Below are positions 26,369-63,890 of a stretch of DNA of 64,000 nucleotides, one piece after another. Numbering within the stretch: position 1 is the first letter of the stretch; each line of letters begins with the position of its first letter. The notes under the pieces were generated by a model. That model was not told the DNA's origin and did not search any database. It saw only the letters and a program-made list of their open reading frames with translations. The stretch is from NCBI GenBank assembly GCA_026874595.1, contig CM049310.1:37711558-37775557 (forward strand), read 5' to 3'. Position numbers and translations under genes: made by a program. This DNA comes from Sipunculus nudus (lineage: Eukaryota > Annelida > Sipuncula > Golfingiida > Sipunculidae).

Positions 26369-26400
<32 letters not shown>

Positions 26401-27368: not shown

Positions 27369-27369
<1 letters not shown>

Positions 27370-27433
<64 letters not shown>

Positions 27434-27460
27434 AATATATATATATATGTATATATATAT
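27370..27460. repeat. (TA)n microsatellite
   Basis: About 90 bases of nearly pure TA inside the inverted-repeat element. Confidence 0.9.
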
Positions 27461-27564
27461 GAGACATTGCTGAAACACTATTATATGCCTAAGGTGAATA
27501 AGGTCTTTTTTTCGTCATTTATCTATCAGCTTTACACTTACCTTTTAGTCAGATTTAAATTCTC

Positions 27565-27639
27565 TAGAGAGAGAGAGAGGAGGACAAGAGAGAGAGAGAG
27601 AGAGAGATAGAGACAGAGAGAAAGAGAGAGAGAGAGAGC

Positions 27640-27673
<34 letters not shown>

Positions 27674-27685
27674 CAGACAGACTGA
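27565..27685. repeat. (GA)n microsatellite
   Basis: GA-rich run at the inner edge of the right arm; it mirrors the TC run at 26360-26401 in the left arm. Confidence 0.9.
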
Positions 27686-28232
27686 GAGACATAGCTATAT
27701 CAGATTCCTCGTCTTGGTTTTCTAAAGGCGACATTCTTGAGGAGAATTTTTTTGTGAAATTGACACATCATAATTGGAGATATAATGTCACGTGACAATA
27801 ACCAAACCAAACGTAAGTCTTTCTATGTATACTTTCTAACAACACCTACCATGTGTCTGAAATTTCTGACCCGAATACGAACATAGCTTGCACGGCTTGC
27901 TGGACAGCAGTCAACTTGTACGCGATTCAGGAAATGACTCTTTACCATGGAGTCGGGTTTTCATTTTGGTTTGTGTATCCACATGTATTCTTTTGTGATA
28001 ATTCATCATTCGTAGCCTAGTTATAAGATTATCGGCTCTATACCACAATATTCATGCAACAAGATATATGACAACTGCAGTACATTCCTCCGTACTAGTT
28101 GTATTACGATTCACGTTAGGCTTATCAGTGCGATTTAAAGGCCTACTCAGTCGAGTATTCACGACTATTTCCAATCAAGGTAACTTTGCACCTCTTACAC
28201 TGAAACCCTAAGATTTACTAGTCCTGAAAAAA

Positions 28233-35541: not shown

Positions 35542-35577
35542 GGCCAAAAAAAAAAAAAGGTCTGGTTCTCAGGCACT
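35542..35577 (+). repeat. Left terminal inverted repeat of the 5.4-kb transposon
   Basis: GGCC, 13 A, then GGTCTGGTTCTCAGGCAC; pairs with the right end at 40923-40957. Confidence 0.9.
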
Positions 35578-35724
35578 TTTTTTCAGAAATCCGTGAGGGA
35601 GGGCGATTTTTTTTTTTACCTTTTTATTTCTAAATTATCAGTAAAAATCATATGAACCGGGGACAACATGATAATTACATAATTTCTTGCTGAACAAATA
35701 CAAGCACATCATATGGAACAAACC

Positions 35725-35730
35725 TTTATT
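35725..35730 (-). terminator. Polyadenylation signal of the transposase gene
   Basis: AATAAA on the minus strand about 150 bases past the TAG stop, inside the element. This is a plausible 3' end. Confidence 0.4.
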
Positions 35731-35878
35731 TCTTTTCTCTATAAAAATATATATCAGAACCATGTAGGTTTCAAAACAAACTTGCTCTGTATTTATGACC
35801 AGCATAAATAGAGTTCATACTCTTGCTTCTCTGAAAGGAAAGCACATTTTCATGTACATACATTTTAAGACCAGTTTT

Positions 35879-36684
35879 CTACACCTTGGAACACTTTGAC
35901 TTTTGTTCACCAGCAACTACATGCAAATTTCGCTTCCTTCGCAATGGTTTATCATGTTTGGTCTCACATGTTTCACAGATGGGGTACCAGTCATTGCTTG
36001 TAATCAGTTCGGTATCAGTGCCACAAAAAAAACACACATCTTTGAAGGATTCACTGCTGTAATAGGGCACTTCAACAGGCACTGAGCAATTCAAGTTTGC
36101 CCTAACAAACACCAACTCCAATAACTTGTCAATGTCTTGGGTTTGATTGTCATTGGATATCATTTCTTGAAGCACTGCACCACATGTGTATTCATAGTGA
36201 TTAAGAAACAATACCAAGTTTCTAGCTTTTTCAATGGAAAGTTTTTTGCATGCATAGATAACGCGAGGCTTTGAACAGTCTGTACAAACTGCTACCTCTC
36301 TCACAGTGTTAGCAGTTTGTGCTGATGGGCTAAATGGAATAAGGTGTCCTTCCTTGGACTTCTTCATAACAGACGGCATATACTCCTGCGTAGTGGGGGT
36401 TCAATAAAGCTGTTGAAATGACTTGTAATGGCCATCATCCCCTGAAAAAAAAACACATAAAAAACATCGATTTTATTTAAACCAATCATCACAGTATAGG
36501 AGCTGTGTCTAGATCGTTAAATAAGGATAATTTGTGATTTTGCCGAGACTAACTTGCACATATAGTCTGTTAATTAAAAACATGATTTGCAATATACTAT
36601 GTGGTATTACAATGGTTGGTAGAAATAAATGAAAATTAATAAATAAAATGCTTAGAAAGATGCACTGTTACTTATTATAATATA

Positions 36685-36735
<51 letters not shown>

Positions 36736-39700: not shown

Positions 39701-40548
39701 TTAACTGTTGCGGCCTTCACAGTCTGCCACCTCTCAGTCTGCATCCAAGGTGTATCGAGAGATATTTCCAAGCTATGTAAATGGCAGTTTAAAGAGTCAG
39801 CCCTTACTGGGGGTATTTTGTGCTTGTGATCTTTTGGTTTATTAAAATTTGTAAAAGGCCGAAACATTTCTGGCAGATGAAAGCCACGATCATCAAACTT
39901 GGGCAAGTGCTGATCTAGATACCACATTGTGTCCACTAGATTTTTAATGAAATCAAAACCACTCCCAACAACAGCCTCTTGGCTGAATCCTAGATTATGC
40001 TGAGAAAAAAACTGTATAACAGCATTGAAAAGTTCACGCTTTTTGTTACTCAGGTTTCCTGGTGACAAGTCATATTGAGGTGGTAATGAAAACTCATGTT
40101 GTTTTTTCATCAATATTTCAAAAGCATTTTTGGGTTTTGGTACATCTGGCAATTTTTCACTACTACTAGTACTAGCAACAGGCGCAGCACTACTTGAGGG
40201 CCCGGGTACACAATCCGCCTCATTCGGGGTACGGACGCCAGTTACTGCAGCTGGGCTATTTATTTGCATGATGTGAAAAGATACATACCTTCCAAAAAGA
40301 ATGGCTTCTTGTATTTTTGCTGACAGAACAATATTTTCCAAAAATGACGTTGTTTTTTCAATACTTGCAGTTATTTTACATTGTTTTGTTAAATCACATT
40401 CTGGTAGCGACGGTTCATGTTCATCAAGTTTTCCGTCCACTATCAATTCAAGTAACGTTCGTAGAGTGCATTGGTCACTAAACCCGCCAACAATCCCCCA
40501 GGGTCGAACAATCTTGCCATTCTTCACTACCTGAACAGAAATCAACAT
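35879..40548 (-). CDS. DDE transposase, 1,139 codons in four exons, one internal TGA
   Basis: Exons (minus): 40548-38023 (842 codons, donor CAG|GTAAAT), 37785-37613, 37003-36846, 36441-35879. All junctions have GT-AG and agreeing phases. The start is the first ATG (MLISVQVVKNGKIVRPWG), in a long uninterrupted exon. Candidate catalytic triad: D631 or D632 (VAMDDKHHC), D739 or D743 (IYSDGGPDHN) and E783 (WKNPPERIMS), late in exon 1, spaced like an RNase H fold. C-terminal zinc-binding clusters: KKCGDEACTLCQK in exon 3, CTDC and CFFCGTD...CETCETKH in exon 4. The only lesion is TGA at 36403-36401 (codon 966; LY-stop-TPTTQEYMP), which would remove the last zinc clusters. It would cut and rejoin element ends in the nucleus. 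Such proteins seem familiar from corals and sponges, but I cannot name the superfamily. Confidence 0.85.
36680..36731. repeat. (TA)n microsatellite in intron 3 of the transposase gene
   Basis: About 50 bases of TA between exons 3 and 4. Confidence 0.9.
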
Positions 40549-40571
40549 GATTTTTTTTTCTCTTACTAGAT

Positions 40572-40587
40572 CTATACTATAGTATAG
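40572..40587. promoter_or_regulatory. 16-bp perfect palindrome upstream of the transposase ATG
   Basis: CTATACTATAGTATAG lies 24 bases upstream of the start codon, within the element's right subterminal region. It could be a dimeric protein-binding site, but no function is shown. Confidence 0.25.
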
Positions 40588-40922
40588 TCACTCGATCATC
40601 AGATCATAACACCATTTTTGCGGCCAATGGTCGCTATTAGCAACAGTCACTTGCATCAAGAAGTATTCGGGCCGCTTAGATCTTATTCAATCACATATTC
40701 GGTTGTTAATAAAACGCTAACACGCATGCGTGCATAACCGACTTTGTATTAGAGTAAACAGTGGAAACTTGCGTGTACGCGTTCAAGCACGAATTTGAGT
40801 TAAAACCGCACGTTATCGCCCGCAAACATCAAGCGTCCGAGAGACTGAAGCACTAACTGGTAAATTTCTTTGGAAAATCGAAATAAAAAATTTTCATGCG
40901 GGGGGATAAACTTGATGCGGGC

Positions 40923-40957
40923 GGTGCCTGAGAACCATACCTTTTTTTTTTTTGGCC
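40923..40957 (-). repeat. Right terminal inverted repeat of the 5.4-kb transposon
   Basis: Inverted copy of the left end: GTGCCTGAGAACCATACC, 12 T, then GGCC on the plus strand. Confidence 0.9.
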
Positions 40958-43520: not shown

Positions 43521-43689
43521 AGTCAGCTTGTATGATTTTTATATTAATGATTTAAATAATAGTTTTTTTTAATTATTTATAAAATAAACGCTTTGACCGG
43601 TCAACCCTTAGTACTAGACCGCCTGCAGCAGAGAGGACCTGCAGGACCGGCTTGCACCTTTAATTTTCTTGATTAAGATATCATAGCTC

Positions 43690-44553
43690 AATATTTCTCA
43701 ATATCATAGCTCAGTATTTGTCAGTATCACAGCTCAGTGTCATAGCTCAATATTTCTCAGTATCACAGCACAGTAATTGTTAGTATCACAGCTCAGTATT
43801 TGTCAATATCACAACTCAGTGTCAGAGCTCAATATTTCTCAGTATCACAGCTCAGTATTCGCCAGTATCACAGTTCAGTATTCCTCAGTATCACGCCTCA
43901 GTATTTGTCTGTTTCATAGCTCCGTATGTGTCAGTATCACAGCTCAGTATTTGTCAGTATCACAGCTCAGTATTTGTCAGTATCAGAAGCTCAGTATGTG
44001 TCGGCAGCATAGCTCAATATTTCTCAATATCACAACTCAGTATTTGTCAGTATCACAGCCTAGTATTTGTCAGAATCATTGCAAATTATTTTTCAGTATC
44101 ACAGCTTAGTATTTGTCAGTATCTTAGTTCAGTATTTGGCAGTATCAAAGCTCAGTATTTGTCAATATCAGAGCTAAGTATTTGTTGTATCACACCCAGT
44201 ATGTGTCAGATTCATAGCTCAGATTATGTCAGTATCACAGCTCAGTATTTGTCAAGATCACAGCTCAGTATTTGTTAGTTTCAGAAGGTCATTACAGTAT
44301 CATAGCTCAATATTTTTCAGTATCACAGCTCAGTATTTCTCAGTATCACAGTCTTGTATTAGTCAGTATCACAGCTCTATATTTGTCAGTATCGCAGCTC
44401 AGTATTTCTTGAATCGCAGCACAGCATTTTACAGTATCGCAGATCAGTATTTCTACGTATCACAGCTAAGTATTTTTCAGTATACTGAAATATCATACTG
44501 AGAAATACTGAGCTGTGATACTGAGGAATACTGAACTGTGATACTGACAAATT
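43690..44553. repeat. 23-bp minisatellite array with a terminal strand flip
   Basis: About 35 units of TCAGTATCACAGCTCAGTAT plus TTG. The unit has no stop in some frames, so long false open frames run through it. At 44476-44489 the array turns back on itself through the palindrome TTCAGTATACTGAA, and the last units (to 44553) are inverted. Copy A keeps only a handful of units (19550-19640). Confidence 0.9.
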
Positions 44554-45779
44554 TCAATTTTTTAAATTCAATTTAAAATATAATGTTTTGAAATATTTTC
44601 TCCGTGAAACACTTAAACAGAAATTGGCATCAAGCTCAGTTATAACAGGAGTGCAGCAAACTCGAAATTTAGGACCTGTTTTAGAATTGGCCTAAGGACT
44701 AGACGGATAGGTGAACGATTATTGAAGCAAATATGAATAATATGGAGAAAAAAAATTGAAAAAAAAATTGAAATCGCCACGTTTAAAAGGATGGATTTCC
44801 TTACCCCAAAAAGTGAGTGGACAAGAAGAACTTTGTCCACCTCTCCTAGAAATATGAGTCGAACAAGTTTTCCTGCCGTTTCCCCCAGCAAGGCCAGTGA
44901 TTAATGGAGTAGGAAAATAAGATTTTTTGTTCAATCTTTCAATTAAAACTTACGTTTGGGCGCTAGCGGCTCCAACAGCAAGGAGAAATATAGCCAAATA
45001 CATCAACTTTGCGTCACTATTATAAGGCAAAAAATGTACACTTAATTATTTAACACGTTCAATCATGAATTTATTAATTTGATTATTAAGAATATATTAA
45101 AGGATTTGTAGAACGAATTTTTATAAACATATATGTACATCCTGGCTATCTTTGGGTACATATGACTGAAATGTAGGTAATTTCTGCTGAGAAAGGTTCG
45201 AATGGCCCTCTTGTGACAGGTTATGAACTGATATATCTACAGGAATGTCTGATGCAACAGTGGCTAGTCAGCAATGGTTTATAGAGGACCCTAAAAAGGT
45301 AAGGGGAACAACACCCTGCCACAGGTGAACCAGACTTTACACTTTTTTTAATCCGATTGTAAATTCGCCCGCTTGTTCGGAATAGAGAGTGACTGTTTCT
45401 TCTGTTCATGTTTGAGTTCGAAAAAGGGGGGCCGGGCAAGCCAAATAAAACTATCAGTAAATGTCCATTGATGATGCGATTAATCAAAACCATTTAATTC
45501 AAATATTTATTCATATAATAAAAATTATGCACTTAATGTATCATACATCACCTACTTTATCAGAAAACGAATCATGTGTACAATTTTTAAAGCAAATTTC
45601 AGCTGTAAATGTCCATACTGATTTTTATTCTTTATTGGAATATCAAACATCACCTGCTTTGGAATAGATTTGGAACTTGGACTGTTGAAAAAACATGAAT
45701 AAGCAACTATAATGAATTTATTTCAAACTGACTAAAATAAGTAAGAAAATAAAAGAAAATGCAAATATTGGTTACTCAC

Positions 45780-45833
45780 GATGTTGGCTTCACTCGTCGA
45801 CTGCCCAAGTTCTCTGTTCCGTCTTTATTTATA
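45780..45833 (-). promoter_or_regulatory. Candidate TATA promoter and leader exon of copy B
   Basis: Minus-strand TATAAAT at 45833-45827, then a short leader ending at a strong GTGAGT donor near 45782. Colinear with 24840-24895 in copy A, where the equivalent donor reads ATGAGT. Confidence 0.35.
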
Positions 45834-46406
45834 ACTTTTTTGACTTGAGAATTAACAGGTGTGCTGGGGTAATGACGAATTACCCGACACGTGGCTTTCT
45901 TATCGGTGTGAATAAGGTCAGTAAAAGACCCAGGGAAACTTGTTGCTATGCATAATAAAAGTGCAAAATGTTGGACTGAACTCCAGCGGACCGCTAACAC
46001 AAAATGCTCACTCTTATCCCTGGACCGGACCGGTCAGAACCGTTTAACCCAATTTTTAAGGGTTTATGCGAAACAGATGATTTATGGATTTTATTCAACT
46101 TGTCATGAACAATCTTGTCGTGTACAACGTGTTATTAACTACTTTTTAACCAAGTAAAATGTATTTAAATGCAACATATATTTTATATGTTTTTTTTTCT
46201 CTGGGTAACAGTAAAGGGTACTTTTTTGTTAACTTTTGATTGAAGTGATATGTTCAACATTAGAATCATTGTTCCCTGCTGTGTTGCACAATATTCATGC
46301 TTTCCTCTGTGTAACTATGTATTATATACGAAATGATTAATTTCTATACAATCAATACATTCAATACATAGTCCTATATATCCTATATATCATATATGAA
46401 TATATA

Positions 46407-47390
46407 CAGTGAAACTCCTACTTGCGTACAACTCAGTGAGGCGGACAACTCGCTAATGCGGACACTAAATCTCATTCACTTCAAATTTGCCTCAATATTA
46501 TGTTTAACGTAAACTCATTAAAGCGGATTACTTATTATCCCGGTCAACAGTCAAGCTTTCCCGTACCGCCTGCGTATCTAGTATATTACGACGGACTAAA
46601 GCGGACAGACAGCGCGAGTTCTATTTTTGTCCATATATCTGACGGCAGATGGCGCTCCGAGGTCCTGACCTCGTATGACCTGTTTTTGGTCAAAGCCGCC
46701 CGAGGACAAGCGTAATATGATGAACCATCGTGTTTTTTCATGCGAATATACATTGGAAATTGTCGTTTATTTCTATTAATGTGCAGATATCACAATCGTT
46801 ACTGTATTAAGATTGGCCGGTCAATCAGAAAAAAAAATACGCGTTCAAACGACTTTTCATGTGATAAGACCACCATCAACGACTAAAGTTCGTGAATTGC
46901 GATCGCCGCCAGGGAAGCCTTAACTAGTTAACGACATTTTGCACTTTGTTATGGTGAATGCGTCGTGAAGACTATACCTTGACAAAAAATGATGCTGTCC
47001 GGATGCTGTCAATCATCAGTCTTCAATATACCTAGTGCAACCATCAATGAACTATGCTTACTTATAGAAGATGAAGCATGGTGCGTCGGAGTGTAACTGC
47101 CTAGATTAGTGTGCGAGGCCTAGCTGACGAAGTTAAAAAAAAGAGAGTGTTTGTCCTTTCTTTGTTAATAATAATATTGTATAAATTACAAATGCATATT
47201 AAAGCTATTTTGAAAATGATTAAAAAAAAATTATATATTTCAAATTAAGCCTAAACATAATCAAATCAGAGGATATCAGTACCATTCAATGAATAAATGA
47301 CCCAATATGCTAAACTCCTCTAAACGGGACAACTCACTAATAAGGACAACATCCTTCAGTCCCTTGAGTGTCCGGCTTAGAGTAGTTTCA

Positions 47391-47393
<3 letters not shown>
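46407..47393. mobile_element. MITE with pogo/Tigger-like ends
   Basis: Left end CAGTGAAACTCCTACTTGCG and inverted right end CAGTGAAACTACTCTAAGCC are flanked by TA on both sides (TA target). The 987-bp interior contains GCGGACAACTCGCTAATGCGG and a related inverted segment near the right end, but no transposase was recognised. The TA-rich site is empty in copy A (about 25520-25545), so it inserted after the duplication. The family call rests on end sequence and TA target only. Confidence 0.75.
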
Positions 47394-47447
<54 letters not shown>

Positions 47448-47462
47448 TATATAGATATATAG
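47394..47462. repeat. (TA)n microsatellite flanking the MITE
   Basis: Long TA run at the MITE insertion site. Confidence 0.9.
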
Positions 47463-47830
47463 GTGTATATATATAATCATTAACATTAGAATAATAACTT
47501 TTCTATTTTCGAGTCGCATTAAACCACATATTATCATTCAGGTAATGTCAACCCGGAGCCAACCCCGCCCAGCAAATTCTTTGAATGAGCTAGCTGCTCT
47601 CTGTAAAATTTGGTTTATATTCTGAGCACCATGTACCGCACAGTGACACAAAATACTCTACTCTTGTCCAATCAATTACAAAGACTGCGATTTTAAATTT
47701 CTCATTAAAAATCGAACGTGTGCGAATCACGTACAGATTATAGTATTACATTTATTGCACGGGTTTCTGTGTATGTCATTAGGGGTTGCCAAATATTTGA
47801 AAAAAAATGTTTTGACCATTGTGAAGAATA

Positions 47831-48719
47831 AAAGCAGAATAAAATATGTTAATTTATTTTTTATTTTATTTTTACAAAGGGACCGGACCGTTCAGGCCGG
47901 ACCACTCGACATGTTATGTCCGGTTCGCACGTCTAATGTAAAATAATGCTAATGTAAAATTTTGCTCAGACCCAAAATCGGAATAAAACGGTGTTGGGAA
48001 ATCATACAGATCTTGATTGTTATTTACTAAGTAAGTAGAGGCTACTTCTAGTAAGTCCATTAATTAAGCTACTTGGTAAGTAGATCAAGAGTGAACAAAC
48101 AATATGAAATATGGCATTGCTCACAAACCTATTGACCGATAGGGTAATATTTTGACCAACTCGAAGAACAGGATTTCTTGTTCCATTCAATCTAATTAAA
48201 AAATCCTTTTTTTAAAGTACCTCTTTTTTACGTGCTCCCTTGCAATCCCTCTTAATCCTTTTGTAATCAGCCGATTGCTCCTGATAAAGGGGCCATTTCA
48301 TACAAGTTTGGTGGCTACGCCCCAATCCCCCTCCCAGCTCATCAACTGCTTGAACAAACCATATTATATCCGAAACACTAAGCAAATGAATTTTCACCTT
48401 TAAAATTAAGCTCTTTTGATAATTCGTTAAAATATGAATTGCTAACGAAAATGTGTTACAGTGACTCAAAGTTCGTACAATATCAGTGCATCACAGTCTA
48501 AAAACTAAAAGTCGTTTGTCATGTCTTGCAGACACGATATATTCTTAGGTGTTGACCTTACACGTTGGTAGATTTATGAGTGTGACATGATTTCAGCCAT
48601 TAAATACAGAATTGGCCCCAAAAACTCGGCCATTAAATACAGTAATTCAATAATTCGTCCAAAGCTTATGATTACATAGCTAAATGCTACTTTCTTTGCG
48701 AATTACTATTCGTTATGGT
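47831..48719. other. Intergenic, nothing recognised
   Basis: AT-rich. A CCGGACC-rich patch lies at 47880-47930 and a short duplicated GGCCATTAAATACAG at 48597 and 48628. No gene was seen. Confidence 0.4.
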
Positions 48720-49430
48720 AACAAAAGATTGGTATTCATGTTTTCAATTAATGCATTAAGATCAAGTGCAATGTCATACTGGAAAGAGAGAAAGCAACAA
48801 TATCCATGATATGACATGTTTTTGCAAGAAAGTAGCACAGAAATGCATTTTAGATTTCATTCATAAAATTAGAACGCGAATGCATTTGGTGTCACGTCTG
48901 AGGTCTGGAACTGCACAGATCATTCATCTAGGTCAAGGTTATAGTCGAATTTTGAAGAAGAATGCAACACTCGCCATGCTAGGTTTTTTTTTTTCCAACA
49001 TGTAAATAAAAAACAAATATTAAGTGTTATTCCTATTTGGCTTTAGATTAGCCGGGATTTCCATTCATTTGGTGATACTTTTAGGTCATGGTAGGTACCT
49101 ATGGAGCAATAAGTTCAAGGTCAATGCGAAACCTGGATGGTTTGATATGATATAGCATGTATTTGCATATAAGTGACATAAAACACATTCAAAGGGTTAT
49201 TTTCATCTTAATTTAAGTTCAGATCATGCATTAAGGTCAAGGTCAAGTTTTTAAAAATACAATCACACTGTCCATGAAATGGCATGTTTTTGCAAAAAAA
49301 AAAAAAATATTAAGGGTGTCACTCCAAGCTTGCAATAGAATTTTCACGTAGCTGGTGATACTTCTAAGGTCATTATTAGAACATATCATGCATTAAGGTC
49401 AAGGTCGATATTAACTTTGCTAGGGGAAAT
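48720..49430 (+). repeat. Satellite-like units, left of the RecQ element
   Basis: Three or so drifting units with TTAAGGTCAAGGTC, a 'CCATGATATGACATGTTTTT' block and GTGTCACTCC-type text. The same units appear in inverted orientation at 60540-60890 on the far side of the composite element. Confidence 0.65.
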
Positions 49431-49591
49431 ATATATTTTAGAAATTTATGACGCCACTGCCCCGTAGGAATGCCTATTAACTTGTCACTGTGACAAATTT
49501 TATATTTGCCAATCATCAAAAACGAAAACAAATTTCCCATGCGCATGTAATAATACGTTTAAATGGTATTTTAATATGAATCTATATTACA

Positions 49592-49593
<2 letters not shown>

Positions 49594-49666
<73 letters not shown>
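49594..49666. repeat. (TA)n microsatellite, left arm
   Basis: Mirrored by (TA)n at 60437-60483 on the right side of the composite element. Confidence 0.9.
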
Positions 49667-49670
<4 letters not shown>

Positions 49671-49783
49671 TAATTTATGTACAATCAATGAAGTTGGGTA
49701 CCTTCAGCTGCAACTTCTTCATTAGTATTCCAGCTCTTTCTTCGTATAACATTCATGCTAGCAATGTCTTATAATTAGCCATA

Positions 49784-49897
49784 TACTGGTATACACATCA
49801 GTTTATCTTTTCGACAGGTAAATGCTTATTATATCACGTTCCCCTTCAGTTGCACTTTTTCAGGTGCTGCTGGTTGCGTAACCCTGGCAGGCAATGG
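49784..49897 (+). repeat. Left inverted end of the composite element
   Basis: Pairs with 60025-60157. The right copy has about 17 extra bases between CAGTTGCACTT and the CAG.TGCTG-type block. Confidence 0.7.
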
Positions 49898-50636
49898 AGA
49901 AATTTCAAACCCATACCTCCGGGGGATGTTATTGCTACACAATGCTTGGACATAATAATGTGTGCTAGTAGCCATGACAACATGACACTCAGGCCTTCGG
50001 AAATAAAATGATACGGGCCTGCGACTCATGATGGAAGTCACAACAGAACGCCCGTTCTAAGGGGCAGATCAAAATATATGCTTGGTGGTATTATTTTACA
50101 TCACAGGGTTATATGGTCATGTTATATATGCTTAATATCGAAGAAAAAATGTTGTTCCACAAATATAATTACATTTATTACCTCCTTTCATCTCTCTGGC
50201 CCCGATTCACATGGAGTCGGCCTTCTTGTCCATTGCGGCCCGTGTCATGGCGATATCGTGGGTAACAGAGACTTTCCCGCTAGGGGCGCTAAGTGTCTGT
50301 TTATAAACAAACGAACGTGTCTAGTGTTTTTCTTTTGCTTGCCTGCCTCGGAGCCCAATTTATTCCCCCCAATAAATGCCGATGTACAAAAAATTTACAA
50401 ACATATGGGTTTCACTAAACATTTAAATTATCTTTGCATGACTGAATAAAAGAAGAACAGATTGTAAAACGTTAATGTTTACTGAAGCTGTGAATTAGAG
50501 AGTCAAGTGATTTCACGCCTGTCAGATTTCACGCCAATCGCTTGTTAGTCTATCGCTTGTCAGTTTGTTGTCAGAGGGTGTTATCAGAGAAAGAAAAAAC
50601 GTTTATTTTGCATTATTTATCGTGAACAATCTCATC

Positions 50637-53600
50637 ATGTTTGATGATGGGGGTCGTTTTGAGATCGAGGACCATGTGAAAAAAACTTGTTCCAGGATGT
50701 GCCTTAAAGGAAGAACAAGAGGCAGCTTTGCAGTCCCTCCTAAAAGGGAAAGACACAGTGGCTGTTTTGCCCACCGGTTACGGGAAAAGCCTGGTGTTTA
50801 TGCTCTTTCCAAACCTTTTGCATTCAATATATCGAGGCAAGTTATATTTTGTCAATAGACACATGTAGTTTTATTGAAAATTAAATGAGCTTTATTTGTA
50901 CAGTTTGTTTACAAAACAACTTGTAGAACACCCCCCCCCCCCCCCCAATAGCAAACAGTGTCAGGATACAGGTTTCCCCCTCCCCCAACCGCAAACAGTG
51001 TCAGGATACATGTTACCTACATTTAAAATTTGACTAAGGTTATAACAAGGGAGTTATAAATATTTTCTATATTAATAGCACATCCAATTTACAGTTGGAT
51101 TACTGTGTCAAATTTTTTTTTCTTTAATATGTATTTATTATGTCCCGGGATTGCATAATAAAAAAATGGGAAATTTTCCACGGAGGCCTTATATAAAAAC
51201 TTGTTACTCCTAAAATATGTAAGATATGTATTTTCTCCCAAATAATCATATAAATAAATATTTATTATTTCTTTTCAGGAGCAAATTATGTAGCATCGGT
51301 GATCTGTCCACTGACAGCTTTGATACATAACCTGTATCAGGAGTACAGGAGGAGGGGGTTCTCTGTTGGTTACATAACAGAGAATAGTGCTAAGGGATCA
51401 TGATTAGGTGCTAATACAGTATTTTTCATTTGTTTACATATGATCAAAATATACCCCCTATATTTTAATTACATTGTTCTGTGTTTTCATGATTAAATCC
51501 TGCTATGTAATTGGAATCCAGCATTCCCTTGTAAATATATTCAAATTAAGTGGAAATTGATACAGATTATGACAAATGATATAATAGAATTTTTCTTAAT
51601 TTGCCTAAATGTATTTCTTACATCTGATATTTTTTTCGAATTTTTATATTTTTTGCCTTAATTTTTAAACAGATGTAGTTGCTGGGATGCACTCTGTGCT
51701 CTTAGTTACACCAGAGGCATTAGAACAGGAGGAGTGGAGAGAGTTGTTCTGACCAGTGATGTTTACCAAGACAAACTGTGCCTGGTGACTGTTGATGAGG
51801 CCCACGCAGTTGTATAATGGTATTTATATTTTTTGCTTGTGTGTACATATAAAAGAAACCAACTTTATGGTCATATATGATACTTCACTTATGAATATCT
51901 CAATCCGAAATTTACCTTACAGTTAGTTATAGCACACAGGCTGTCCTTTTAATGTACTTTTAGAGCAACTGAAGTAATGTTTGTTTGTTGGAACAAGGAA
52001 CAATTTAATATATGGTATTCTGTATGAACATGTCCCTTGTGCTTTTCAGGGAGTCATTCAGGGAGGCATACACAACCTTGGGGGAAATCAGAGCCTACTA
52101 CCCTCAAGTTCCATTTCTTCTAACATCTGGTACCTTGACCAGTGACATGCTGTCCAAAGTGTTGGCATCCCTACATTTGAAGGATGTAAAGACAATAGCC
52201 AGGGTGTCAGACAGGTGACTGAGATTAACCTTATTTTAAGTCATAATATGACTATAGTACTTCAAGGGTAACACTTTTAGTATATTCAGTTAACACATAA
52301 TGCAATTATAAAAATCTAAGAAAAGTAGTCAGATGTTTATTCAATATCCTCTCTTAAGACACAAAAAGTTTCAATAAATATATTTAATGAGCCTGTATGA
52401 AGAAAAAGATAACCGAAACGAACATGTAAAAACTAATGCATACAAATTAATTCTGTGTTATAAAAAGGTACTGAACTGAAATGCATGTTAGTTGCGGAGC
52501 TAGTGTAAATCATTTTAACAAAACTAATACATACCATTAACTGTAGATTTGTATACATATACTAACAAGAAGATATCTCTCAGTGATATGCATAGCTCAT
52601 ATTGTATATTCAGGCAAATAATAACAAGAAGATATCTCAGTGATATGCATAGGGCATAGTGTATTTTCAGGCAAATAATAACAACAAGATATCTCTCAGT
52701 GATATGCATAGGGCATAGTGTATTTTCAGGCAAATAATAACAACATGATATCTCTCAGTGATATGCTAAGGGCATATTGTATTTTCAGGCAAAGCAAATA
52801 AAGAAATAAGTTAATTTTAAATAATATTATACTAAAATGTTATAGTTTATTTCCAGGCCCAACATCAAGCTGCACTTCCACGCTAACAACCACACTGACC
52901 CTGCAGAGGCTCTGGAAGATTACATGGATGATATGAGATGGAATCAAGAGACCTGTCGCAAGGCTGTCATATACTGCAGGTAAGAAACATTACCCAGTTT
53001 CTTTTTAATAATCACTGTACATATTTAATATTCATCATATCATCAAAAGTCAATAACACAGGACCTGCTACAGTGTACTCCATCAGCATTCATTTACAGT
53101 AGCTTTAATATTTTCACTTTGAAGACACACAAGTTTTATCTCAGCTAATGACAAAGGCTCATGTGTCAACATAAGTATCTATGCAACCATCTTCTATCAA
53201 GATTTAACTCTATGTGTATGTAATTTAGTGAAATCTTTAAATGCAAACTTTTAAAGGTGTTACTGAAAAAAAATATTTACAGATTTACTAATAGGGATAC
53301 ACTTTGTATGTAATCTGTATTCAATGAGGTGAGTTTTATAAGACAATGTATAATAAAATGAATAAAGATATTTTTTATTTTTTTTTCCACAGATCTCTTT
53401 CACAACAAGGCAAGATACACCAGGAACTGGTATATCTTCTCCGTGAGGATGCTTTTGTCAACCGAATAGAAACCAAGGACATCAAGATGATCAGGCTGTA
53501 CCATGCAGAACTTGACCCGCAACAGCAGGCAGAAATTTTGGAGGAGTTTTCTAAGCCTAGCTCAAAAATCAGATGTCTGATTTCTTCTGTTGCTTTTGGC

Positions 53601-53953
53601 ATGGGTCTCAATATCCCTGATATACGTCTGGTGTACCACTGGGGGAGCCTGATACTCTCCTGCAATACTGGCAGCATGTTGGCCGTGCTGGTAGAGATGG
53701 CCTTCCCACTGAAGCCCATATTCTGCACAACGGACACCAACTTGCAAATGCCCAGAAAGATGTGAGAGGTTTTATTAAAACTTTGCAAAATGACCCTGCT
53801 GCATGTATCAGGAAATCAATCCTTGAACATCTGCATTTGCCAGCCATGGGGGACATAAACAGGACGGCCACAACTTGTGAGAACCCAGGGAGCTGTGAAA
53901 AGTGTATGTGCACATGCTGTAGCAAATGCATGGAGTGGTGTGGCTGTAACTGA
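50637..53953 (+). pseudogene. RecQ-like ATP-dependent DNA helicase, decayed
   Basis: Exons: 50637-50836 (GC-AG donor GAG|GCAAGT), 51279 to about 51408, 51673-51819, 52050-52214, 52857-52979, 53393-53953. Visible helicase motifs: Walker A PTGYGKS (50770-50790), Ia CPLTALIHN, II DEAH (51794-51805), III LLTSGTLT, ATFGMG-like SSVAFGMGLNIPD, and VI QHVGRAGRDG (from 53672). The C-terminus is a cysteine-rich tail (CEKCMCTCCSKCMEWCGC). Lesions: an extra A in a run at 50679-50685; TGA at 51401 with no good donor before it; a frame change near 51740; TAA at 51815 where the family has Gln after DEAHAVV; and a frame change in the G run at 53641-53645. It would have unwound DNA 3'-5'. It lacks long RQC or HRDC regions, unlike cellular BLM/WRN, and resembles the short RecQ-like copies common in invertebrate genomes. 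Confidence 0.85.
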
Positions 53954-54344
53954 TGCTATTTATGTACGGACATAAATCATAGGGTTTTAAGACAAAGGAA
54001 AAAAGATTGTTTTTTTCAGGCATTTTTTCAGATATTAGGACCGGAGCATGATATATTTGAAACATTGTATTATATTTTCAATGCTGTTTCATATTATGAG
54101 AGGTCACCATTAATTATCACCATAATTTGCCAAACAGTTAAAAGCATATCATTACAAGAAAATTTTTTATTTAAATTTAATCATATTTTTTATATAGAAA
54201 TGTCAGCTCCAAATTAGTTATATTCAAAGGAAAACCAGAATAAACCTTTTGATGTAGCCGCAGAAAATGTGTGGTGCCTGAGAAACCAACCATTGTATAT
54301 TCTGTCATACATGCACATACATTAATAGAAGTACACTGTCTGTA

Positions 54345-57300
54345 TCAATATAGTTGACATCTTAAGTTGATGAGTGAACTTGTGTCTGAGGAAGGTTTAT
54401 GTTGTACATTTCTGCATCCAAGTTTTTTTTTTGCATATTTCTTTATTTTTTTGCGCAGCAGGTCCTGATCACATGCTCCATATGTGTGAATGAAGTCTGG
54501 GAAGCTTTCATGTGCTCTGCCTGGCATGTTCTGAAAGAGCTAGGCTTCCTTGTATTCTGTAAATAAATGCACAACAACTAATATACATAATGTGAAATAA
54601 CAGAAAATCATGGCAATTGTTGAGACAGTATAAACACCCTTCAGATATTAGGCTCAGTATCACACTGAAGGACTGTTATTATAATCCCTCTGCAAACTAT
54701 GTTGATATTAAACTGAACTACAAATCAAATCCCTTTTATTATTTACTGATGATTCTTGTTGCCTCTGCATGTGGTTATCATTTGATATCTCAACCACTCA
54801 AAACTTATGAATACATGGCAGAATTTGCCATCTTGATCATGTATGAGATTATATATGAAGACTTGACTGTTTGTGTTGACATATCCTCAGCATTATGGAA
54901 AATGTTTTATTTTATTTAATAAATGTATTCAATAAACTTGTGTGTGGCCTGACATTATCCGAATGCCAACAAAAAGGTGATAATTTTCCATCCTGAATGA
55001 ATCTGTTTCCCAGGGGAAAGAACATAATTTTTTTTTATAATTTCCTCAGTTATCACAGGACACTACACCTCAAGGTGAAATATGACAAGCATAATTACCT
55101 TTAACAAACTTTGGAACAGCAGCTGAGTATGTCTTTGTCCACTTTTTATGTCCACGGCTCATGTATGTGTCACCCATTTCTTTTATAAAGACCTCTTCGA
55201 GAGCTTTTCGAAACGATCCTGCCATGTGGCTGGCACGCTGCACCTGGTCCTCCCCATAGAGCCCATGGGTGTGACGTAGATGATCTGTAGGTGAAGATAA
55301 GCACAATGATAAGAATATAGTAGCCTGTCACAACATATATATTTTAGACTTACATCTGGGTTCAGGATTAAATAACACTGCTACAACTGTGAGATCACAG
55401 AGGTAACCATGGCGTCTCACCTTTGGGTTAAATGACTCAAATAATTCTCTGCGGAAAGACCTCAGTTCTAATAACTGCTGATGGGGGACTGATCTTCATT
55501 TTCATTAGGCCTTGAAGAGGCTGGAAGTTAGTGAAATATGTGATATTCAAAGTCTACTTAACATGAATCAAGCAATAGATATTTAATATGTCACAGACCA
55601 CTGCATGACAAGGTAAAAGAGATCTCCTGTTACAGTGTTTTGACAGCATCTTTCTATTTTCTTGCTTAAAAGCCCTTAACAGGTCATTCAAATTTACCTT
55701 TGAACTCATTGTTGCTGTGTTCTACCAGTAGATCCAGTTCTTTGTTTCTGCCTGGAACTCCCCAGGTATTAGCCACCCGGTTATACCAATAACAAAACAG
55801 TTTTCCTATAAACAGGGAATTTAAAGAAAACATTCTGCGGACCCCAATTATGTATATATAAAGAAATCTTACAGTAAAATGAATATATAGTTGGAAATAT
55901 ATATATATGAAACAAAGCTGTTGGACAATGCTTTATTTTGCATCGGATAATGAGGTAACGAGTCGTAGGCATGGAGTCCTGGCTGGCCTATCAATGGTGT
56001 AAGTGTTTTAATGAAGGGGCAAACAAACGTAGGGGAAACCATTAGACCACAAATATTTTACAGTTAACCAGCAAATCAGTACCAATGTGTATGAACAACA
56101 AATATCTTAGAGCCCTGGCCAAGGGATGCATGACAGCAATCACTGACCCAAATTTGATTGAAATCTGATAAAATTTAGGAAAGTTACTGCACGGAAACGA
56201 ACCTGACGGACAGACAGACTGACAGACAGAGCGACAGACATACAACCCCAAATCAATGTCCCCCATTCCTAGGAAGCAGGGGGAATTAAGTAGTAGGCCT
56301 ATAAGAGAGAGAATCTTAGGCTAATCAGGATGATATGTTGAAGTGTGGTTTACCTCTTGACATTTCAACTGAACCAGTATTTATTGAATTAGTGAGCACA
56401 GCCAATCAGGATGCATTATAGTTTGTGTTAAAATACTCAAGATTTAATATATATCTTACTGATACTGGTGTTTCCTAAAATATTAAATTTAAACATTTTT
56501 TAAATAGTGACAGCACATAAATTTTCTTTCAAAGCTTGGTTTTTATTAAGGTGTATATCAATATCAGATGACAATCCTAAAAGAAATCTGACAAAATAGG
56601 ATCTATTAAATGTGGGTGAATATTGAAACAGAAAATTACCTGATGTCACACGGTGGGCCAATATCAAGTATTTATTGTTGTTGTGGAGAAGAAATCCTGG
56701 CATGTCATATCGCCACAGCATCATCAGCATGGGGCCATTTTCTTCCCTCTCTGCATCCAGCAGGGCCTGATGCATCAGGCCCTCCCATGCTAAAGCCTTG
56801 GAGTACTCGCACACAGAGTCATATGAGGATGATGGCTTCTTTGCTTTTTTTCCTGCGCTGGCTACTTGTTCTTGTTCTTTGGCTCTTCTTCTTTGGCCGA
56901 GCTGAACTTGAGGTAATGCATGCTGGACAAATCCATTCATCTTCTACTACAAAAAATATAGAAACAAATCTGAAATTATAGTGTCAATTTAATACGACAA
57001 CATTGGTGTATATATAAGTGACACAACATAACCATTTTATTTTCTTTTAAACATAAGTTACTGGAACCATCAAATTTGACTAACATATGGGTAACATTTA
57101 CAGTTGAATAAAATCAGGTAGATTTTGCCTAAATAACGCTATTAACAGGCATGGTTACCATGTCCTGTTTGTCTGCACACATATAACATGTTATACCTGG
57201 TATGGTGTGGAAATTCACACATGACAGGTAGACCCCTCCCCAGCGACAAATGCAACTTCATTGTCATAGCCTAGCCACTGGTGTTCTGGAAGGTTAGGTT

Positions 57301-59343
57301 TTTCAGCATCGCAGCAGTATGGAGTTTGGTTTCATTTGCTGGACGACCTGGAATGGCTTCAGGAATTTGACAATTTCCTCACTTAACCTTTTCAGGTCAG
57401 TTTGATTTTGGGGGACATCTGTCAGACCTTTCATTTCCAAAAGCTCCATTGCCAGCAAACACACCATTCCTTCTGTGCTAAAATTCAGGAGCTGATAACA
57501 GTTCTGTATGTTTTCAGACACTCTTCCCTTCACTGAGCGGTGCTAGAATCGACACTTTATATTGAACAAAGTGCCTGCCTCCCTTGCACTTGTGGCCCTG
57601 AACTGGTCATTTTATAAGTTCTGAAAAATATCAGGGAACATGTAAACTGCAATTCATAGGCAAAAAGGAATGAATCTGTTCACTTGTTAATTTCTGAGAG
57701 TCTTATGAAAATAATATGAGACAGCAAACTGAAATATTTCTATTTAACAATTTTTAAAAAAATATTCCAATTGGGTCCTTTGAATGCAAGGTTTTAAAAC
57801 TGAACACTATTATTTTTTTTATTTTCATAAGAATATACCAATATAATTACTGCAATCATAATAGTACCTTTATTCGATTATTCCACTTTTTTAATAATTG
57901 TTATCAATTGTTATCAGATTCAGAATTACCTTAGTGAACAATTAATTTTTTATGTGCACAAATAAAATACCACACACCTGCAAGCAAATCATACGATGAT
58001 GAAACTCCTGGGGTGATGGTTCCAAGCCCTTAAGTGTTGTCCTGGGTAGCTTTTGGTCCACCATTGCCTGTCGAGCACTGACCATCCTTTCTACAGAGGA
58101 CTGGTCCCCTTCACACAGAATAGGGAAAGACTCTCCCTGTAAAAACTAAAGTGCAGTGTCAACACAATTCATATCAAAACTCACCTGACAACTTAAATAA
58201 CTAAAAGATATACCAATTTCTCTGTACACAGAAACGAACTAGATTTGCAATACATACACCAAATGACATCATTATTTAAAGATATAAATCTGATTGCACC
58301 ATGCTGTTCATATTATGCAACCAGAACATCATACTTTATCAATACAAATTGGAAGTTCTTATAATATCATGACCATCACCAAACAATTATAGAACACTTT
58401 TATGAAACCAACTAAAAGTGTACATTTATTTTATTCTACTCCTGGATTGGCACATGAAGCAATATTAAGAATAAGAAAATACTTGTGGTCAAAATTTATC
58501 ATAAATATTTCCTAGTCTAATTAAATTCTTTACAATATGTAATATAATATTATATGGTGACATTTATATATATGTTAAATGATTTTTACATTGTCCTGAA
58601 AATAAGTGACATACCTCAGTGCCATCTGGGTATGGGACATATTCATTCAATGCTTTTAGTATGTGGAACACCCCCTTGGTTGAAGTTGGATCAGCATCAA
58701 TCACCCCTGGATTTACAATATCTAACTTCTTGTCCATCAGCTCTGTATTGTCATGTTTGAGGATGGTGGAGGCATTCACAAAATGTTCCTGTAAAAAAAG
58801 GAAGGACAATGTTTTGTGAAAATTCAAGAGTTTTTTATATCCTCCTGTCAATCATGTGTGTTCACATATTGACTACCATCACAAACAAAACAACTTCAAA
58901 TTCCCATCTTCTGCTCCTCTACTGAAGAATGATTTTATATTACTAGACATGGCATATTATGCTATGACCCTCAAAGCGCCCACTAACTCATATTTTAGCT
59001 TACACCTACCAAAAATCAGCTCTAACATATAATGTATACGTGTGCATTTAAAATGATTTGCAAGGCCTAAAAATCCTGTAAATATTCAGTTGACACTGAT
59101 ACCGAGGCTCACCTGAAAGTATGGCATATGCTCTATCAATATCCTTTGAACAAGGACTTGGGTGTAATCGTAACTACTGTCACAGTCTCCTGGACAAAGG
59201 AAGTTCTAGTGGTCCATCATAAGGAACACGATGCTTCACTGCCATCAGCATTGCCCACAACATCATTTTGTTCTGATGATCCAGGCTCTGCAATTTTGTC
59301 CGCCTCAGTTTTCCCACATTGTCCCATACAAGGGAGTATTCAG
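54345..59343 (-). pseudogene. DUF6589-like multi-exon gene, decayed, possible transposase
   Basis: Exons (minus): 59343-59113 (YSLVWDNVGKLRR, NKMMLWAMLMAVKHRV, then a frameshift to YTQVLVQRILIEHMPYFQ); 58788-58615 (ending EYVPYPDGTE); 58136-57978 (GDQSSVERMVSARQA, FHHRMICLQ); 57620 to about 57348 (SAREAGTL, in-frame stop, SVKGRVSENIQNCYQLL); 56946-56640 (DEWICPAC in one frame, YSKALAWEGLMHQALLDAER in another); 55805-55698 (YNRVANTWGVPGRNKELDLL); 55284-55099; 54530-54345 (MPGRAHESFPDF to the stop). The GDQ..ER block, WDN block and NxxGxPGxNxxxDL block recall DUF6589 proteins, often taken as transposon-derived; that match is from memory. N-terminal exons were not found. At least three frameshifts or stops kill it. 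Confidence 0.65.
56140..56275 (-). repeat. Dispersed (GTCT)n-linked repeat
   Basis: Minus-strand text with several GTCTGTC units followed by CAGTAACTTTCC and TTTCAATCAAATTTGG resembles a repeat type common in mollusc genomes. It lies in an intron of the DUF6589-like gene. Confidence 0.4.
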
Positions 59344-60024
59344 CTGTAAAAGATGAAAATGGACATGACTGCATGTCTAACTCATTGATACAAGTTGATC
59401 ATCCTCATGGGTCACACATAAACACACAAACATGCATACACATAGAATCCAGTTTTGTTCTGAATTGGAAAATATCCTTTAAATCTATTATTAGTTTCAT
59501 TAGTTTCACATGATTAAAAGTAATAATGGGTACCATAACCTATGGAAGCTAACACTCTGAGTTTAAACTTTGCAACTCGAGTAGATGTGCAGTTGTGATA
59601 TGTTTCCTTATATCTTAACTAGAGCTTCCTCGATGTACATGCCTTCCTTTTTAATATTTTGGGTAATATGGAGGCATAAAGTTAGCAGCTGGGTTTTTTT
59701 TATGTGCATATGTGTGTCCTTGAGGCAGTATCACACCCACTAACAAGTACCTAGAATAGACATTTTGTGGAGGTTTCTTCAGTTTATTTGACTAGTTTGC
59801 TGTTACCATGAATAGGTCAGTATATGTGATATAAGTATTGTGTATAACGTAAATACATCTGAATAACAGCTTTTGAACCTTAAGCCGAGAAAAATGATGT
59901 CCTGCAGATTTGGGAGTTTGAATTTCATTCTGCATACCCCCAAGAGATATTTGCTTTGACCATCTGTTCTGGTAGGGTTAAACCTTGGTATGTATGCTTC
60001 GGGGGAACGGTTTCCATATCCCTT
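59344..60024. other. Right interior of the composite element, no exon recognised
   Basis: The missing N-terminal exons of the DUF6589-like gene should lie here if the element is complete. A minus-strand open frame at 59803-60090 overlaps the inverted end and matches nothing known. Confidence 0.4.
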
Positions 60025-60157
60025 GGTTTCTTTGCCTGTCAGGGTTACAAAGCAAGCAGCTACTGAACATTTTAAAATAGTTAAGTGCAACTGCAGGGGT
60101 TATGTGTTGTAATTAAAATGTACCTGTCGATGGGATGAGCTGATATGTTCACCAGTA
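60025..60157 (-). repeat. Right inverted end of the composite element
   Basis: Inverted match of 49784-49897; colinear conserved blocks over about 115-130 bases. Confidence 0.7.
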
Positions 60158-60435
60158 ATAATCACTGCACCAATGCACAGTAATTGCGACCATGAAATAA
60201 ACACAGCTAAGAGCAGGGATTTAGATAAGAATTATGATGATGATGGTAACCATGATAATGAAGAAGATGGTGATGATGTTCTGAATGATGAATAGGTTCA
60301 TAACTTCATGGGTTGTAGAGGGACTTTGCATATATATGAAATGGTGTATTCATATCAAATTATAAATCACAAGTTATGTTCCAGCACATTTAAGGTTTGT
60401 TTTCAATGGCTAAGCATAATATAAACAGTTACAGT

Positions 60436-60485
<50 letters not shown>

Positions 60486-60900
60486 ATTTATGTCATTTTT
60501 TTCAAATACCTACCATATAATGGCGGGTCTGGTATTGTCTTATCAAATTTGCCATTGGTCTTACCTTGAAGCATGATATGTACCTTTCTTGGGCTCAGGA
60601 GTACCATCGAATCAATGGGCTTTCTAATCGCAGCTAGAACTGACACTTTAATTGTAACCTTGTTGCAAAAGCATGCCATATCATTGTGTTTTTTAATCAA
60701 ACGAGACCTTGACCATAATGAGTGATGTAAGCCTTTATTGGCCTATGATTCATCATCGAATTAATAAATGAATGAGTAATCTAAATTAAGTTAGAAACGT
60801 TGAATGTGTTTCTATGTCACGTTCTTGCAAAACACAAAACATGCTATTTCGTGGCGAATGCTTCTTTTTTCATGTAACATGTTTTTTATATTAACGTTGT
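60158..60900 (-). repeat. Right mirrored arm: (TA)n then satellite units
   Basis: (TA)n at 60437-60483, then inverted copies of the 48720-49430 satellite units (CATGCCATATCATTGTG, GACCTTGACCAT). The order from the element outwards is the same as on the left. Confidence 0.6.
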
Positions 60901-62139
60901 TTTTGAAGACAGGTAGGGACATCAGAAAACTTTGAATGAATGTTTTCATTCCAGGTTTAAAAGAATTGTAAAAAACGATAATGGCTGTCAATATGGCCGT
61001 TAAAATCCAGATTAAGATCAAATAGTTTATTTGTTATATATACGTAAGTAGCACATACTATAGTATATGTTTTGACTAGCTTGTTGTAAAATCACCCGGA
61101 AGAGGAAAATCAATTCCTAAAAATATAATAAATTAACAACAGATTAGTTTTCAACAAGGGATCAGTTTAGTTCCCGGATTGCTGACACGCAGGTACTCGT
61201 TTAGATTCTTTTTTGATCACTTTGGAACGACGGATAACGACATGGGAACGTCAAGATCTCTTTATTTGAAGTATGGTGCGCTACATGATTAGAATCTGTA
61301 ACTTTTACATACGCTTTCTTTAGCAAACTCTAATGGTAAACCAATTGAAAAGATGGCAAAGAAGTCCCGACTTTCTTCCCAGCCGTTTAAACAACCCTTT
61401 CAAGTGTATTCCGTTCCTCGGCATTGATATGCTTCCTCCCCACACATTGACAGAGAACGTCAATACAATATCTGTAAAATTTCAGCAGCACCGAGAAGCT
61501 AAACCCTTTAATTCTTATTAAAAGTACGGCCATTGTTTGGCTTTCTACGTACGAAAGAAACATTTTTTAACCCTCCTACTTCAATTCTGATGACATATGC
61601 ATACCTAACAATTTAAAACGGTCAACAATTTCTCCCACAGAACCACCAATTTCTATGGGCAAGATCTCTGACCATTTACGATAACAGTCTATGTACGTCT
61701 CCTCGGTTGATTTTAATATGATATTTATATTAGTCATCACGTGATTGTTTTTTGTTGCGTCAATAGACTATTGGGTATTGAGAAAAATAGGGTTATTTAC
61801 TACCTTTTACACACAAAAAAAACTTTTCCGGTGCCAAATTAAGTTTTATAGCTGATCATGAATGGATGACTGATTTGGCACCTTTAAATAACTGAAGGAT
61901 TTTTTTTTTATTTTATATACTAGAAATCTGCATCCCAATGTATACATGCAGCCACAATGGGAGCTCTGTTGTTCGCTTGACGCCGTCACTCCAAGGTACT
62001 GGGTGCTCAATCGTGACCTGTGCAAAGGGCCGGGCCACACTGACAAGGGGGGGGGGGGGGATTTCTGTGCATTCACCTATTTTTTGCCCATATTCCCAGG
62101 TTCATTTGTGCATAAGTGACCATACAGTTGTGAAAATTC
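60901..62139. other. Intergenic, nothing recognised
   Basis: AT-rich, with a G run at 62046-62060. No gene, RNA or transposon end was seen. Confidence 0.4.
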
Positions 62140-63890
62140 TTTGATGATGCTCCGGAATCCGAAGAAGATTCAGCTTCAAAACCAAAATCTAACCGACACT
62201 TCCTAGCCCATTCCCGAAATGCCTTTAACATTTCATAAGATTCCCTTCCTGATTGCGTGAGTTATGTTGTGAACAATCAGTTACACACAAACACACACAC
62301 ACACATGAGCGGGAATTAACACATACTTACTCGACCAATAACATGCCCTACCACGTGATAAACGAAACTACGTTCCCTGGAGTGTCTCAGAAGTGTCTTG
62401 TAAAGCACAGTTTGAAAATTCAACGGGTACTTTGGGGAACCCCAAATACTTGGTAGGTTCAGTTCTGTTCATCAGTTCTCTATGTAATGAAAAGCGTCCC
62501 ATTCAGTTTTTGTAGCTAATTTAGTCAACTGTCTATTGATCAACGACAAAATACAATTTTGAAAGTAAATAATCCAGAATGACCTTACTCACACTTAAGC
62601 ATATAATAGTTTTCAGCAAAGTCTCACCTATCAATTATTTACATGTGACTCATACAATGGGGCGAATGAATTCACTACTGTAGTCTTTGTGCTATCCATA
62701 TTGACAGCATTTTAAGATTTGAAGGGCTCCAATAAAATATTAGTAAGAGGCCTTCTTATGCCCACAGCCGCAGATGAAAAAAAACATGATTTTTATGCAA
62801 CCAACTGCTCAAGATGGCCCTTTTCAGAAAACAGTCGCTTTTGGCCGACACATCCGCCGTCATCTTGATTTTACATGGTGCGCCGCATTTGTATTCTGTT
62901 AACTTGTAAAATGTGTAAAAGAATATTTGAAAGGCCCATAAATGTTGGTGCCATTTAGTTCTTTAGGTGATCCCCGGCCACTGGTCTGGTACAATTCACT
63001 CAACCTGGCATACACTTCACGCATTCACTTACGGCGGTCCTGTCCATGCGGACAACCGATGTGAATAGTGACTTACAATCAGCTGAACTTTCAACAGGCA
63101 CATCAGGACCTGCATGTGCGAGAATTTATAACTGAACGTAAAACAATTCCAAAGGTTTGCTTTTTGGTACGAGGTTACAAAAATTACGGATATTGAATAT
63201 TTTTGTCATCCTTAGAATGAGGGACTGTTTATCTGGTACCTTCAAATGCTGTTAATTTTTTTTTGTTACATCAGAAAATCAAATTGCAATAGTTCCTAAA
63301 AATCACATACGGAGTCCTTGATAACGCTCCGGAATCCGAAGAAAATGCAGCATCATCATCGAAATCTAATCGATTCATCTTGGCCAATTACCGAAATTTC
63401 TGTGGTTCCGTTCATGTCATCAAAATGTTATGCCATTAATGTTGGCCTGTTATCTTTGATACTTATTGTTAGTTACCTTTGCACTTTCTGTGGAGAGGAG
63501 GAGAGACAGACAGAAGGAAAGACAGTGAGACAGACAGACAGAGGTCTATCTAATTCGCTGTCTTGGTTTCCTACATGCGACATTCTCGGGGGGCATTATT
63601 GTAAAATTGACACAACATAATTGGAAATATTATGTCACTCGACATGAACCAGACCAATAGTGAGCTTTTCTAAGTATACTTTCTAATAACTCCTACCATG
63701 GGTCTGAAATTTCTGACCCGAATACAAACATAGCTCGCACGGATTGCTGGACGGCAGCCAACTTGTACGCGATTCAGGTTATGACTCGTTACCAGGCGTT
63801 TCCAGTTTGGTTTTTGTGTTCACATGTATTCTTTTGCGTTAATTCATCATTCGTAGCATAACGACTAGATTGTATGCTCTATACAACGAT
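62140..63890. mobile_element. Second, rearranged copy of the long inverted-repeat element
   Basis: 63570-63885 matches the right arm 27720-28050 in the same orientation. 62582-63380 matches interior 27503-26455 in the inverted orientation. 63885-63950 then resumes with sequence like 28935-29060. A roughly 100-base block (CTCCGGAATCCGAAGAA) occurs twice here, at 62140-62240 and 63315-63425, and once, inverted, at 26455-26530. No left arm was recognised. The window ends before the right flank is complete. Confidence 0.6.

Follow-up and report, generated by a model that had tools for sequence, protein, structure and literature searches.

The stretch of DNA analysed here (the window) comprises 64,000 nucleotides of Sipunculus nudus, positions 37,711,558 to 37,775,557 of contig CM049310.1, and probably contains a DNA transposon copy of AcademH-like type, old and broken, of which a young relative in the genome is 17.0 kilobases (kb) long and carries a gene of the Pfam family DUF6589 (PF20231) together with a gene for a RecQ-like helicase of superfamily 2 (SF2). 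Window positions are given as plain numbers, and other sites of the genome in the form C5:82.0 megabases (Mb).

The helicase gene lies on the + strand from about 50637 to 53953 and is made up of six exon-like blocks (Table 1). All five acceptors examined end in AG, and clear donors were found for exons 4 and 5 only. The protein joined from the exons, with an X placed at the breaks, matches the Pfam domains DEAD (E 2e-17) and Helicase_C (E 1e-12), and the best match in PDB is WRN, with RecQ, at an E value of about 1e-34. The reading frame changes within exons 1, 3 and 6, and a stop follows directly after DEAHAVV. One of the introns holds a 59-base-pair (bp) tandem unit in four copies (52559-52793). 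The DUF6589 gene is located on the - strand, from 59343 to about 54486, and is convergent with the helicase gene. Two single exons match PF20231 on their own with E values of 4e-4 and 1.8e-3, both below the cut-off, and the joined exons, in a query with one wrong residue, reach 45.9 bits against a cut-off of 27 (E 4e-12). For the N-terminal exons of the young transposase no convincing counterpart was found in the window. An initial annotation, made from the letters alone, had read two decayed, multi-exon genes facing each other at this place, one RecQ-like and the other DUF6589-like, and the exon blocks, the AG acceptors, the frame changes, the stop and the domain scores bear this out.

At C3:42848257-42849636 the genome has a DUF6589 open frame of 554 amino acids without a stop. 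In an alignment of five DUF6589 rows, DN is conserved in all four that extend to it and GDQ in four rows, and the D and the E of D-x3-E are likewise conserved in the four that extend that far; the row of the young element was joined out of frame near GDQ, and its exon itself reads CHGDQLSCERM. The D of DN (WDN in the window), the D of GDQ and the E of D-x3-E could form a candidate DDE triad, and the DUF6589 protein is probably a transposase of the DDE type. Viral contigs scanned with one stretch of each window gene gave no relative, E. coli genomes gave no match, and Rfam gave 0 matches.

The best evidence for movement comes from two copies of one 17.0-kb sequence, located in opposite orientation at C9:27538303-27555316 and C2:78066802-78083817, which differ by 82 substitutions over 16,990 aligned bases and by 50 gap columns. 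Both copies stop at identical bases, with TAGCTGCATAAGCGG at one end and ACTAGGGCTA at the opposite end, beginning with TAGC and ending with GCTA, and are flanked by perfect but mutually different 9-bp target duplications, TGCGCGTGG and GTCCTCAAA; when duplication lengths from 1 to 13 were checked, only 9 matched. The copies carry a DUF6589 gene (E 5e-12) and a Helicase_C gene (E 8e-13), which face each other and contain introns, with DEAD remaining below the cut-off, and one block shows weak PHD-like matches, all below the Pfam cut-offs. The window genes can be aligned to the young element block by block in unchanged order. Since the two copies share their ends and have different 9-bp duplications on C9 and C2, a unit of this kind has transposed recently, a result that holds for the kind of unit and not for the window copy itself.

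The two genes are also linked elsewhere in the window's own 1.43-gigabase assembly, which is the genome that was searched. The PF20231 search gave 26 matches in 23 loci, and the search with the window helicase gave 96 matches in 58 loci, 95 of 193 candidates being scored. A helicase match is present within 15 kb of 12 of the 23 DUF6589 loci, where 0.03 would be expected by chance, and all 12 are convergent. Local tblastn at 10 DUF6589 loci, about 10 kb to each side, found a convergent helicase at eight of them, two beyond the twelve, a weak match on the same strand at another and no helicase at the tenth, and the other 13 loci were assessed from the search tables alone. Altogether, a homologous RecQ-like helicase lies within 15 kb of 14/23 DUF6589 loci, tail-to-tail in 14/14 cases, and the linked loci become 13 when the two copies of one element are counted once. 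The pairing and the convergent order are established for this genome, and the proposal of the initial annotation that the pair constitutes one mobile unit, with RecQ-like genes to be looked for within 15 kb of DUF6589 genes, agrees both with this linkage and with the two 17-kb copies and their 9-bp duplications.

Several observations weigh against this interpretation. No convergent helicase was found at 9/23 DUF6589 loci, one of which has a weak match on the same strand (E 0.005), and of the 58 helicase loci 46 lack a PF20231 match in reach and 12 have one. Among the unpaired loci are a near-identical helicase family of four to five copies (C1, C2, C5, C7 and C9) and, within the best 95 of 193 candidates, the three loci most closely related to the window helicase (C9:35.76, C15:53.17 and C6:2.73 Mb). 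On the far side of the C9:35.76 Mb site (35752500-35757499), where one would expect the DUF6589 side, nothing matching it was found. In the window copy neither a right end nor a target duplication could be recognised, and the two ends of the young element have a terminal inverted repeat of just about 4 bp in common, with no longer inverted match between its terminal 3 kb. Finally, the comparison with AcademH covers the helicase and the duplication length, both taken from descriptions. Some of the unpaired helicase loci may be host RecQ genes. The window pair itself is missing from the PF20231 matches, which means that such tables overlook worn copies and limits how the count of unpaired loci is to be read.

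The members of the near-identical helicase family (C1:90713234, C2:86932551, C5:42171723, C7:60568031 and C9:23020122) have nearly equal scores, and a similar exon spacing where both are listed. No PF20231 match is found near them in the genome table, and they probably represent one more young family that carries a helicase.

The left end of the window element is located at 49969, where it starts with TAGCCATGACAAC. Twelve aligned copies, the window and 11 others, start at the same base in different flanks: the copy of the window family at C9:35.76 Mb joins another flank at 49968, and ten further copies start with the same TAGCCATGACAACATGACACTCAGGCC next to differing flanks. It is this shared start in different flanks that places the end at 49969. 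The end reads TAGCC in the window, beside the TAGC start of the young element. The first part of the element is very abundant in the genome. When 49690-50637 was used as the query, 36/40 scored places, the best 40 of 1401 candidates, start at 49960-49971 and end at 50210-50260, and the 25-base left end has 636 exact copies, with 0 for a reversed control. Three copies that were read for about 1.37 kb from the 25-base end are nearly identical over about 1.3 kb, sharing about 250 bp with the window element before they diverge, and such high-copy copies read as a young family of their own which has its left end in common with the window element.

It could be argued from this abundance, and from the divergence of the three copies from the window beyond the shared part, that the stretch from 49969 to about 50216 represents a high-copy repeat with no relation to the element, which inserted upstream of the helicase, the true left end being elsewhere. 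We regard this as unlikely, because the flanks of the window and C9:35.76 Mb copies diverge exactly at the left end, the element-free site at C5:82.0 Mb described below breaks at the same position, and at a third DUF6589 locus (C10:70.57 Mb) 33/38 of the terminal bases are found again, 1.2 kb upstream of where DUF6589 matches; the young element, moreover, likewise begins with TAGC.

The target duplication of Kolobok transposons is TTAA. Kolobok elements with a RecQ helicase, namely KolobokH and Kolobok-1_CCri, the latter with RecQ on the complementary strand, are described in passages of PMC9587614, and such elements resemble the present one in combining a RecQ helicase with a transposase. That a Kolobok-type element of this sort is involved here is nevertheless very unlikely, since the duplications at the young copies are 9 bp long without TTAA, and KolobokH is said in the same passages to occur only in fungi (PMC9587614).

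The initial annotation had instead placed the ends of the element in inverted repeats at 49784 and 60157, with ATA as a possible 3-bp target duplication. The repeats are genuine: 49784-49894 and 60157-60032 are identical at 88/126 positions (70%, E 5e-10 in gapped blastn), an inverted match of equal strength is found in 5/861 pairs of 1.5-kb window tiles, the pair with the repeat arms included, and ATA adjoins both outer repeat ends, with arm, block and subrepeat array mirrored in order on both sides. However, at C5:82.0 Mb there is a related site whose homology to the window, interrupted by gaps, extends over 44553-49971 and 59534-63754, and the stretches spanning the arms (window 47417-49971 and 59534-61579) are both present there. 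These two matching parts are separated by 495 bp of the site's own sequence, and the helicase and DUF6589 genes and window 49972-59533 are unmatched. As both arms occur where the genes are absent, the arms lie outside the element. Homology does not stop at 49784 or at 60157 but continues past both, and the end common to the 12 copies is 49969 and not 49784. Five other copies of the left array were read, two of which stop at 49971 and one at 49967. An element bounded by the 126-bp repeats is accordingly left with only a very slight probability; the repeats were rejected as ends, and ATA as putative target duplication along with them. The repeats are part of the repeat DNA that hosts the element. 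The left-flank DNA (48743-49570) has 99 genome matches, two of them close relatives among the best 40 of 197 candidates. The initial annotation's own reservation, that the inverted repeats could be an unrelated dispersed repeat, applies to the repeats and not to the gene pair.

On the right side, homology to the element-free C5:82.0 Mb site resumes at about 59534, and the first detected DUF6589 exon starts at 59343. The simplest reading would be that one deletion removed the right end together with the beginning of the transposase gene and part of the flank. A right end was not found at C10:70.57 Mb either, and the C15:53.16 Mb site shares the left flank and the helicase with the window and lacks 49508-50605, as would a duplicate of the inserted state with a deletion of its own. 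A scan for duplications of 9-10 bp around the repeats and arrays gave one TAG..CTA candidate in 2652 site pairs with at most 1 mismatch, which is not significant, and a looser scan gave 568 matches in 36,445 pairs, most of those listed being in AT runs. The near-duplication AATAATGTGT/AATAATGGGT at 49954-49963 and 59522-59531 (9/10) was dropped once the left end had been set to 49969, and is possibly the trace of another event. Positions 44553 and 63754 were also rejected as ends, as there is no duplication there and the 17-28 kb region of the window is collinear past 63754.

Some stretches of the window occur in it twice, but the idea that host genes or a segmental duplication are seen here, and no transposon, has practically no probability in view of the sharp common borders and the perfect, differing 9-bp duplications of the young copies on two chromosomes.

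Table 1. Features of the worn element and of its flanks, in window coordinates.
Feature	Position	Strand	Remarks
Array of ~160-bp subrepeats, left flank	48745..49562	+	outside element
Left arm of inverted repeat	49784..49894	+	outside element
Left end of element, TAGCCATGACAACATGACACTCAGG...	49969..50216	+	~250 bp in common with high-copy family
Helicase exon 1	50637..50836	+	ATG by eye, PTGYGKS, internal frame change
Helicase exon 2	51279..51391	+	3' end approximate
Helicase exon 3	51673..51817	+	DEAH; frame change and stop; 3' end approximate
Helicase exon 4	52050..52214	+	
Helicase exon 5	52857..52979	+	
Helicase exon 6	53393..53953	+	Helicase_C, QHVGRAGRDG, cysteine-rich tail; internal frame change
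Last DUF6589 block aligned to young element	54486..54560	-	
DUF6589 gene exon	55099..55284	-	
DUF6589 probable exon	55354..55520	-	5' border approximate
DUF6589 gene exon NTWGVPGRNKELDLLVEHSN	55698..55790	-	PF20231 positions 338-366; 5' border approximate
DUF6589 open frame containing exon	56640..56943	-	5' border not set
DUF6589 open frame containing exon	57306..57542	-	borders not set
DUF6589 gene exon	57978..58136	-	GDQ; PF20231 positions 107-154
DUF6589 gene exon	58615..58788	-	
First detected DUF6589 exon	59183..59343	-	WDN; 3' end approximate
Stretch from first detected DUF6589 exon to resumed homology with element-free site	59344..59533	.	right end lost or not recognised
Right arm of inverted repeat	60032..60157	-	outside element
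Related subrepeats, inverted, right flank	60492..60874	-	outside element

The DNA around the element is itself repetitive. The two subrepeat arrays of the flanks are mirrored, each standing in the same order with block and arm on its side, and the left array is widespread in the genome. The segments 17110-28049 and 34785-63890 form two collinear series, 70-86% similar with insertions and deletions, in direct and partly inverted orientation, and may go back to an ancient duplication or belong to a repeat unit of larger size that hosts the element. At 43678-44552 a 23-bp unit is repeated in a long array, which has an inverted piece on the right and adjoins 44553, where the homology of the C5:82.0 Mb site stops.

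A further insertion of 5.4 kb is located at 35542-40957, with 39-bp inverted ends (92%) that read GGCC followed by a run of A. It contains an open frame of 870 amino acids on the - strand (37978-40587), for which no significant Pfam or PDB match was found, and a related stretch at 17.83 kb of the window is without the insertion. By these features it looks like another DNA transposon with a putative transposase, and TAATAA may be its target duplication.

In the mechanism that we envisage, the transposase would bind both ends of the element, cut or nick them and join them to a staggered cut of 9 bp in the target, and the helicase might open the DNA at the ends or help to resolve an intermediate. 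DUF6589 is likely to be the transposase of AcademH. We lean, with some reserve, towards the wider view that in genomes of this sort DUF6589 in this role and many of the RecQ-like genes belong to a living transposon lineage, here recently active, intron-rich and 17 kb long, which may also move the high-copy family. The link to DUF6589 is the most useful part of this, as it suggests a function for the family, and a set of RecQ-like genes in the genome is tied to transposons rather than to host DNA repair, with recent movement documented by clean 9-bp duplications. In annotation, genes of this sort are readily taken for host helicases or listed as unknown proteins, and a screen that requires a single long open reading frame would be likely to overlook intron-rich elements of this type.

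AcademH transposons that encode a helicase, from animals and fungi, were reportedly named by Kojima in 2020 (Mob DNA 11:15). The worn window copy is new, and the helicase-encoding class to which we assign it is already known, so that the element is not new as a class. By score the joined exons of the window belong to Pfam DUF6589, a family without a stated function, for which a transposase role is proposed here. DUF6589 is absent from the literature searched, a scope that did not extend to subscription papers, the AcademH naming paper and Repbase, and PF20231 occurs there once, in an unrelated optics paper; the link between DUF6589 and AcademH may be new. A RecQ helicase in Academ is mentioned in a passage of PMC3627910, and Academ elements are reported in PMC10294476 to have amplified in bivalves, their mean length being 5565 bp in a curated library. 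Duplications of 9 or 10 bp for AcademH and of 3 or 4 bp for AcademX are given in a passage of PMC10045372, which ties the difference to the encoded helicase or nuclease. AcademX belongs to the same superfamily as AcademH but differs from the present element by its nuclease and its 3-4 bp duplications, the young element having 9 bp and no nuclease that was noticed. The likeness to AcademH consists in the helicase gene, found both in the window pair (DEAD and Helicase_C) and in the young relative, in the 9-bp duplication of both young copies against the 9-10 bp given for AcademH, no such duplication being recognisable at the window copy, and in the host genome, which is animal-like.

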